Source of the DNA: Chloroflexota bacterium
GTDB taxonomy: Bacteria; Chloroflexota; Anaerolineae; Anaerolineales; Villigracilaceae
Direction of reading: 5' to 3'
Assembly: GCA_021824575.1 (NCBI GenBank)
Contig: JAKAKJ010000064.1
Coordinates: 1-64,000, forward strand
Length of the DNA: 64,000 nucleotides
Part shown: piece by piece, positions 54,541 through 62,765 of the stretch
Layout: the number at the start of each line of letters is the position of its first letter
How positions within the stretch are numbered: the first letter of the stretch is position 1
Program-made: the position numbers and the translations under genes
Notes under the pieces: model-generated
Told to the model about the DNA's origin: nothing
What the model saw: only the letters and a program-made list of their open reading frames with translations
Databases searched by the model: none

Positions 54541-54569
54541 TTGACATCCGATTAAAGGTATGCGATACT
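54541..54569 (+). promoter_or_regulatory. Strong housekeeping promoter of a small structured transcript
   Basis: TTGACA (54541-54546), 17-nt spacer, GATACT (54564-54569). It points into the 54576-54735 RNA and is not linked to any long ORF on the plus strand. Confidence 0.65.
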
Positions 54570-54575
54570 CTTGTC

Positions 54576-54735
54576 ATCATTCAGCGGGGATTACACATTC
54601 AATAGCCATCCTATAGAAAGGAGGAGGTGATGTCCCCCATGGATAGTAGTATCAAACCCAGCGCTGTGGCATCCCTCCTCAAGTAAGAAGGAAGCCGCAG
54701 CGCGCTACGGATGCCGTCCAATTTGGGCGGCATCC
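54576..54735 (+). ncRNA. Candidate structured RNA with alternative hairpins and a small ORF
   Basis: Three pairings are visible. GAGGAGG-T-GATG (54621-54632) can pair with CATC-CCTCCTC (54670-54680) over 11 bp with one bulge, hiding a strong ribosome binding site and its ATG. GCGCTGTGGC (54661-54670) pairs with GCCGCAGCGC (54694-54703), which conflicts with the first stem. GGATGCCGTCC (54709-54719) pairs with GGGCGGCATCC (54725-54735) as a terminal hairpin. It lies between the divergent start of the DUF4173 gene and the 3' end of pfkA. No known RNA family is recognised. Confidence 0.5.
54630..54686 (+). CDS. 18-codon ORF inside the structured RNA
   Basis: The ORF follows the very strong site AAAGGAGGAGGTG and encodes MSPMDSSIKPSAVASLLK. 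A second ATG (54639) is in frame. The last codons overlap the CCCTCCTC segment that can pair with the ribosome binding site, so ribosome movement could change the RNA fold. It may be a leader peptide or a small protein. Confidence 0.45.
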   Translation: MSPMDSSIKPSAVASLLK

Positions 54736-54767
54736 TGGTTTAATAACCCGCCTGTTAAAAGCCGGGA

Positions 54768-55850
54768 CTATTCATCTCCAAATGAAATGCCCATGCCGCG
54801 CGCCGTGATGACTGCATCCTCGTTGAGATCAACTCTGCGAGGAACAGCCAATGCTTCTTCAAGCGCTACGTCTGTAATCTGGCCAGCGCTCAAGGAAACC
54901 ATGCGATCAAAACCGCCGCGCGCCGCAAGACGAACGGCAGCCGCACCGTAACGCGTTGCCAGCCAGCGATCAAATGCAGTCGGTGTTCCACCGCGTTGCA
55001 AATGACCCAGAACCGTTACACGCGCTTCATATCCTTGCTTCTCAACATAATCCCCTACAATCTGACCAATGCCGCCTAAACGCGGCACATAGATTTCATC
55101 CCCGCCGCGTGAAAAGACTTCGGTTCCGCCCAATGGTTTTGCTCCTTCTGAAACCGCAAGTATGCTGAACAAACTGCCGCGTTCCACGCGCTGACGTATT
55201 TTCGCTATGATCGAATCAAACCTAAATGGAATTTCAGGAATCAAGATCACGTCTGCGCCGCCGGAGACACCAGCGTGTAAAGCGATAAAACCCGCTTCGC
55301 GTCCCATTAATTCAAGCACCATCACGCGATGATGCGCCTCCGCGGTGGTATGCAGCCGGTCAATGGCGTCTGTGGCAACGTTGAGCGCAGTATCAAAACC
55401 AAAGGTTACTTCGGTGCCGCCAATGTCATTATCAATTGTCTTTGGCACTCCGATTACTGGAATTCCCTTTTGATACAACTCGTGGGCAATCCGCAATGTG
55501 CCATCTCCACCAAGGACGAGCAAAGCGTCCATTCCAGAATGTCTCATGGAGTCGACAAGCTCGTTCGACATGTCAACAACAACTTCCCTGCCATCCCGAA
55601 TGACCTTGCGGGCAAATGGATTTCCGCGGTTGGCCGCGCCAAGGATGGTTCCACCGCGCGGCAAAATTCCACTTACTTCATTAAGACCCAACGGGATGAT
55701 TCCATGCTTGCTCAGAAATCCATCATAACCATCGCGCACGCCAAAGACTTCACAGCCACATTGCAGGATGGCCGTTTTCACTGCCGCACGGATAACCGCA
55801 TTCAGACCCGGCGCGTCGCCGCCGCCCGTCAAAATCCCGATTCGCTTCAT
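54768..55850 (-). CDS. pfkA: 6-phosphofructokinase
   Basis: A 360-residue phosphofructokinase of the A family. Motifs: ILTGGGDAPGLNAVIR, ILPRGGTILG, GGDGT (114-118), PKTIDNDI (136-143), RLHTTAEAHHRVMVLELMGR and VLGHLQRGGTPTAFDR. Gly at the GGDG position with Lys in PKTIDND matches the group III pattern of ATP-dependent enzymes; PPi enzymes have Asp in the first site. It commits fructose 6-phosphate to glycolysis. AAGGAGGAAAC precedes the start. Confidence 0.94.
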   Translation of the reverse strand: MKRIGILTGGGDAPGLNAVIRAAVKTAILQCGCEVFGVRDGYDGFLSKHGIIPLGLNEVSGILPRGGTILGAANRGNPFARKVIRDGREVVVDMSNELVDSMRHSGMDALLVLGGDGTLRIAHELYQKGIPVIGVPKTIDNDIGGTEVTFGFDTALNVATDAIDRLHTTAEAHHRVMVLELMGREAGFIALHAGVSGGADVILIPEIPFRFDSIIAKIRQRVERGSLFSILAVSEGAKPLGGTEVFSRGGDEIYVPRLGGIGQIVGDYVEKQGYEARVTVLGHLQRGGTPTAFDRWLATRYGAAAVRLAARGGFDRMVSLSAGQITDVALEEALAVPRRVDLNEDAVITARGMGISFGDE

Positions 55851-62640: not shown

Positions 62641-62656
62641 TTGAATTAAATCTTAT

Positions 62657-62746
62657 GTTCCCTCCGCCGGCATAATCCGGATCAGGTAATGCGGGTCGAG
62701 CGCTTCACGCTCCTCTCAGCCTGTCATCGAGCAGGCTCCCCGTTCT
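62657..62746 (-). ncRNA. TPP riboswitch (THI box)
   Basis: On the minus strand the aptamer shows the THI-box core in order: GGGGAGCCTG at the 5' side, CAGGCTGAGAGGA, then GACCCGCATTACCTGATC and CCGGATTATGCCGGCGGAGGGAA. The CTGAGA and ACCTGATC segments are the pyrimidine- and phosphate-sensing loops. It precedes thiN and the transporter genes and would switch them off when TPP is abundant. Confidence 0.96.
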
Positions 62747-62765
62747 ATTGGTTATGACGAATGCA

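Follow-up and report, generated by a model that had tools for sequence, protein, structure and literature searches.

Among the systems closest to the element described here, erm-type leaders combine a short ORF with mutually exclusive hairpins and a hidden ribosome binding site, SgrS, RNAIII, and Spot 42 are dual-function sRNAs, and CcsR and Yfr1 are sRNAs with an anti-Shine-Dalgarno sequence in a C-rich loop. To our knowledge, no attenuator of this kind occurs without a gene. The ORFs found in sRNAs have been surveyed with respect to dual function (PMC5521070). In Sinorhizobium meliloti, the trp attenuator gives rise to two products, the RNA rnTrpL and the peptide peTrpL, both of which act in trans; rnTrpL comes from a cis attenuator ahead of trpE(G) and is leaderless, starting at the ATG (PMC7298713).

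We analyzed a stretch of 64,000 nucleotides from a Chloroflexota genome (the window) that contains an element sharing some of these properties. Where erm leaders hide the site of a downstream gene, the element hides the site of its own short ORF, and only a terminator follows. Of what characterizes an attenuator, it has the alternative hairpins and the short ORF but not the regulated gene downstream. It is small and free-standing with a selected short ORF, like the dual-function sRNAs, and as far as sequence can tell it has those of their features that are testable in this way; unlike them, it is conserved as a single copy phylum-wide, and its coding sequence is one strand of the putative switch. 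With CcsR and Yfr1 it shares a CU-rich strand in a hairpin loop that is complementary to Shine-Dalgarno sites, whereas in the element this strand is part of the ORF and has the element's own Shine-Dalgarno sequence as its partner. By analogy, rnTrpL/peTrpL appears to be the leader-peptide attenuator most like the element, both being short terminated RNAs with a short ORF, in rnTrpL a 14-aa leader ORF (PMC7298713), but the element differs in having no cis gene, a very strong Shine-Dalgarno sequence, and the anti-Shine-Dalgarno sequence within the ORF. The element lies at positions 54541-54745 of the plus strand and comprises the following features.

54541-54569, plus strand: sigma-70-type promoter, with -35 hexamer TTGACA at 54541-54546, a 17-nt spacer, and extended -10 TGCGATACT
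54564-54569, plus strand: -10 hexamer GATACT (promoter match 10/12)
54605-54611, plus strand: GCCATCC box (class consensus GCYATCC, nearly invariant)
54617-54632, plus strand: extended Shine-Dalgarno sequence AAAGGAGGAGGTGATG, complementary to the 16S 3' tail, which is GGATCACCTCCTTTCT in relatives
54621-54634, plus strand: 5' strand of stem A, containing the Shine-Dalgarno sequence and the first ATG
54630-54686, plus strand: short ORF MSPMDSSIKPSAVASLLK, 18 aa from the ATG at 54630
From the ATG at 54639, plus strand: alternative short ORF MDSSIKPSAVASLLK, 15 aa
54645-54650, plus strand: two AGU serine codons in the motif UAGUAGUA, the second being four codons before the codon at which stem B starts
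54661-54670, plus strand: 5' arm of stem B, GCGCTGTGGC, within the ORF
54668-54680, plus strand: 3' strand of stem A, the anti-Shine-Dalgarno sequence GGCATCCCTCCTC, within the ORF
54684-54686, plus strand: stop codon TAA of the short ORF
54694-54703, plus strand: 3' arm of stem B, GCCGCAGCGC, past the stop codon
54709-54745, plus strand: terminal hairpin C and tail TGGTTTAATA, with stem 54709-54719 paired to 54725-54735 and an intrinsic-terminator-like end

The preliminary description of this DNA, made from its letters alone, had reported a strong promoter, a very strong ribosome binding site, an ORF of 18 codons, a pairing that hides the site and its ATG, a competing 10-bp stem, and an 11-bp terminal hairpin with no long gene downstream on the same strand, and our analysis bears out each of these. 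The promoter is the one promoter-like site in the element region, and transcription would start near 54576. The hiding pairing, stem A, has 13 bp with one bulge (-19.1 kcal/mol) and is isoenergetic in the window with the 10-bp stem B (-19.5 kcal/mol), while hairpin C reaches -22.5 kcal/mol over 11 bp. The fold of the 170-nt RNA as a whole has a z-score of -7.1 compared with dinucleotide shuffles. Hairpin C is followed in the window by a weak U-tract, which most homologues have in better form. The next gene downstream is a convergent phosphofructokinase on the minus strand (54768-55850), and the upstream neighbor is a divergent DUF4153 protein. AGGAGGTGATG occurs a single time in the 3.6-Mb genome, at the element, with about 1.7 occurrences expected by base counting. 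No 16S rRNA gene was found in this genome (G000), a 98-contig assembly; its relatives have one.

Conservation of the stems in relatives, on which the preliminary description had made its reading depend, is evident and is accompanied by strong covariation. In a 36-sequence alignment, stem B is 100% paired, with five pairs changed on both sides, and hairpin C covaries in 10 of its 11 pairs. A 96-sequence alignment (A4), whose pair counts are tilted toward stems B and C because the fit was made to them, has 99.5% of stem B cells and 98.7% of hairpin C cells paired, both-side changes in 9/10 and 11/11 pairs, respectively, and 519 double-changed cells versus 121 in shuffles, a signal that collapses when the register is slid. 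In an anchored alignment of 143 homologues, the top mutual-information pairs are those of stem B, and the stem A pair 26-63 is recovered as well (A-U, G-C, and G-U), an exchange of ATG for GTG being matched on the opposite strand. Furthermore, ORF columns 62 and 63 covary both with the Shine-Dalgarno sequence and with the 3' arm of stem B (62-88 and 63-87), as is expected where two helices compete for one strand. Duplex energies of cognate and permuted partners, a comparison that needs no alignment of stem A, indicate that cognate Shine-Dalgarno/anti-Shine-Dalgarno duplexes are the more stable ones (z = -6.3 among 31 cluster representatives; z = -5.1 for stem A outside the class), with z = -13.8 for stem B in the same test. 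Stem A coevolves with its partner strand.

With respect to the competition between the two stems, we observe that outside the class the anti-Shine-Dalgarno strand is fully shared between A and B; in L207 and L214, for example, AGGGCATCACC has two alternative partners, GGTGATGCCC at the start site and GGTGATGCCC past the stop codon. In the window, the stems overlap by only about 3 nt, around 54668-54670, so that in the window's family the remainder may coexist as an H-type pseudoknot. The mutually exclusive hairpins of the preliminary description are thus right for the phylum, being strict in other families, and approximate in the window's own family. The anti-Shine-Dalgarno strand is GCATCACCTCC in most of the class, where it mimics the 16S 3' tail GGATCACCTCC, and has drifted to CATCCCTCCTC in the window's family along with the family's own Shine-Dalgarno sequence. 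Several members of the family (L012, L013, L016, and L045) have 24-26 nt of GCAGGAAGTRCACCTGCACCTYCGGGA-like sequence inserted downstream of the stop codon, ahead of stem B's 3' arm.

The short ORF keeps the same frame from its second start to stem B in 140 of 143 homologues, despite four different lengths, and ranges from 14 to 22 codons. The first RTG is in the stem-B frame in only 112 of the 143; being out of frame in the other 31, it is the less likely translation start, with a spacing that is acceptable in the window's family, and homologues outside that family favor the second ATG (54639). Measured from where stem B begins, the stop codon falls 23-32 nt downstream in nearly all homologues, and the distance left to the 3' arm is usually 4-7 nt. 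Within the 5' arm of stem B, variability at third codon positions is roughly double that at first and second positions (1.08 bits versus 0.59 and 0.52 in 31 cluster representatives), notwithstanding that every position of the arm is paired. The ORF is under coding selection, and the selection on its frame suggests that it is translated. In its second half, the peptide contains SAVASP or SLL in the class; elsewhere a different frame is used to read the anti-Shine-Dalgarno sequence, which gives GIT.EV or TTEAV instead. This inconstancy across the phylum weakens a function of the peptide alone; common to all are only the AGU codons and an MD/MSS-like start. The RNA pairing is thus an older constant than the peptide sequence. 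In comparison with hok-like type I toxins, the homologue peptides are short and not membrane-spanning in character.

In most homologues, the GCYATCC box, which is at 54605-54611 in the window and occurs in all class homologues, begins 25-28 nt before the first RTG ends. Mutual information over the 143 anchored homologues revealed no covarying partner for it, and its exact complement is absent from four 16S genes. Mimicry of the 16S-ITS precursor, with the box and the Shine-Dalgarno sequence copying the 3' flank of 16S, was rejected, as the 16S 3' flanks do not match. The box may serve as a site for a protein or for a standby ribosome.

We compared about 40 loci, each with its 4-kb flanks, and found no neighbor to be conserved. 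The nearest downstream ORF is on the minus strand in 22 cases and on the plus strand in 19, and the neighbors are assorted (PFK, DUF4153, AIR synthase-related, homoserine dehydrogenase, HNH, and response regulator). This lack of conserved neighbors indicates a free-standing gene rather than an attenuator of a downstream gene, and a riboswitch for such a gene was likewise rejected on context, there being no conserved same-strand gene downstream. In addition, a promoter matching at least 9/12 positions lies within 130 nt upstream of the GCYATCC box in 118 of 142 homologues, versus 13 of 800 random stretches, and at least four T occur in the 10 nt after the hairpin C stem in 85 of 96. The element is predicted to be a free-standing transcript with its own promoter and terminator. 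An attenuator or a regulatory sRNA had been proposed in the preliminary description; the classical attenuator falls away, no downstream gene being conserved in the roughly 40 loci, and the better fit is a regulatory or dual-function RNA that stands by itself.

A blastn search with a 215-nt query matched 44 of 61 related genomes, and a covariance model (R1) built from 36 of these 44 matched 183 of 298 genomes of the class. A broader model (R2) found matches in 252/397 genomes of the class and in 167/399 at the phylum level (in genomes of good quality, 199/331 and 162/364, respectively), including many families outside the class and usually with one match per genome; the E-values of these models are rough. 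A covariance search of this kind had been named in the preliminary description as the way to check its reading. Homologues outside the class share their layout with those of the class. A strict DNA pattern run against 84,980 species genomes gave 11 hits, in Chloroflexota only, among them Chloroflexus, Oscillochloris, Roseiflexaceae, Caldilineaceae, Ardenticatenales, and Thermoflexia, the pattern being so stringent that relatives may also occur in other phyla. The gene, about 170 bases long and present in single copy, recurs across Chloroflexota. About 40% of class genomes gave no match in the model searches, e.g., one genus of family f13 and family f8, which reflects either loss or divergence beyond the models. 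Clades wholly without a match in the class and order tallies are nine listed species of genus g368 (family f13), family f8, and family f12, where the element may have been lost. One genome (G004:C212) holds a second copy, L045, that is 5'-truncated and has no Shine-Dalgarno region, and is either a degenerate duplicate or an assembly artifact.

A search of Rfam 15 with the window element and ten divergent homologues returned no family at the gathering cut-off, in line with the earlier statement that no known RNA family could be recognized. Full-length, sub-threshold matches were each obtained from a single homologue to Leu_leader (RF00512; 31.0 bits, gathering 50) and Scr3202 (RF02833; 33.9 bits, gathering 52). 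What these families share with the homologues is a hairpin followed by a terminator, but the element has no leu genes downstream and no conserved core sequence in common with them. 6S RNA (RF00013) and tmRNA (RF00023) were rejected, since the genome has its own copies apart from the element (G000:C79 and G000:C46, respectively); these two genes also lie elsewhere in the element-bearing genomes. The element did not match Chloroflexi-1 (Weinberg 2010, RF01698), and nothing relevant was found in the literature on small RNAs in Chloroflexi and Chloroflexus. The element thus appears to be an undescribed translated RNA switch without an attached gene.

We consider it fairly probable that the element is a self-regulated, free-standing, translated RNA gene, either a mini-mRNA or a dual-function sRNA, with a two-state switch. 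The promoter would give a transcript of about 170 nt ending at hairpin C, on which the near-perfect Shine-Dalgarno sequence would drive an ORF of 14-22 codons whose second half carries the anti-Shine-Dalgarno strand. In state A, translation would be turned off by this strand pairing to the first ATG and the ribosome binding site, and in state B, the 3' arm past the stop codon would hold the strand or a segment overlapping it and leave the binding site open. Stem A would form first on the nascent RNA and stem B once the molecule is complete; stem A need not wait for the 3' arm to be transcribed, and the nascent RNA may thus stay silenced up to completion. By covering the foot of the 3' arm as well as the anti-Shine-Dalgarno strand, a ribosome reaching the stop codon would reset the choice between A and B, whereby the fold state would report translation, i.e., the supply of 30S subunits and perhaps the speed of decoding at the conserved AGU serine codons. 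Both the ribosome-driven switching and the order of folding are what we infer from the sequences. As no gene is conserved in cis, the output would have to act in trans, through the micropeptide, the anti-Shine-Dalgarno strand, or both, and any one of these outputs, taken singly, is rather unlikely.

Among other explanations, an ordinary intergenic structure, with the terminator of a convergent pfkA and a spurious ORF, would suit the position of hairpin C between convergent genes in the window, but it is refuted by the deep conservation and covariation despite different neighbors and has a practically negligible probability. A trans-acting sRNA, possible though doubtful, would use the anti-Shine-Dalgarno seed in loop B (GCAUCACCUCC in most of the class) to pair with the Shine-Dalgarno sequences of other mRNAs, with stem A as an intramolecular lock that is opened by the 30S subunit at the element's own binding site and the ORF serving mainly to load ribosomes. 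Such a role would be consistent with a strand that mimics the 16S 3' tail GGATCACCTCC, lies in a hairpin loop, and stays complementary to its own Shine-Dalgarno sequence phylum-wide, and with a free-standing gene that has a terminator; the self-pairing explains the strand too, however, its drift to CATCCCTCCTC together with its own site in the window's family argues against such a role, and the frame and third-position signals call for an added role of the ORF.

Those signals, i.e., the frame kept in 140/143 homologues, the fixed position of the stop codon, and the synonymous-site excess in a base-paired arm, would be accounted for by a micropeptide gene, with the conserved peptide of 14-22 aa as its product and an RNA structure that does no more than set the dose of the peptide. 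We regard this as improbable, given that the second half of the peptide differs outside the class and that so little besides the start and the AGU codons is common. The serine codons themselves could point to an attenuator-like sensor of serine or translation rate: ribosomes would slow at AGU codons set at a constant distance ahead of stem B, and this slowing would decide between A and B. AGT makes up 222 of 271 serine codons in the N-terminal part, versus 8% in neighboring genes, occurs 220 times in frame and 4 times out of frame, and in 98 of 140 homologues occupies codon -4 relative to stem B, its distance from the start being variable. The AGU at this fixed distance could be a control codon, but an RNA motif UAGUA could explain it equally well, and classical attenuators regulate a downstream gene, none of which is conserved here; this sensor, too, is an unlikely explanation. 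Returning to the self-regulated RNA gene, a wider and more speculative reading, which we hold to be possible at best, is a phylum-wide ribosome-operated sensor in which the mini-mRNA, with a near-perfect Shine-Dalgarno sequence and a mimic of the 16S 3' tail on one molecule, would by its fold report free 30S subunits or serine decoding, and the exposed anti-Shine-Dalgarno strand or the peptide would adjust translation in trans.

In its conservation, the element resembles a housekeeping RNA, being single-copy across much of a phylum, and yet it is absent from Rfam. The same nucleotides join a selected ORF and a selected two-state fold without a cis gene, which makes the element an unusual test case for the interplay of ribosomes and RNA folding, compact enough to be tested outright. 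Elsewhere in the window, we observe a TPP riboswitch above the gathering cut-off (62642-62752, minus strand) and a selenocysteine tRNA gene (535-629), on which Rfam (RF01852) and ARAGORN agree.
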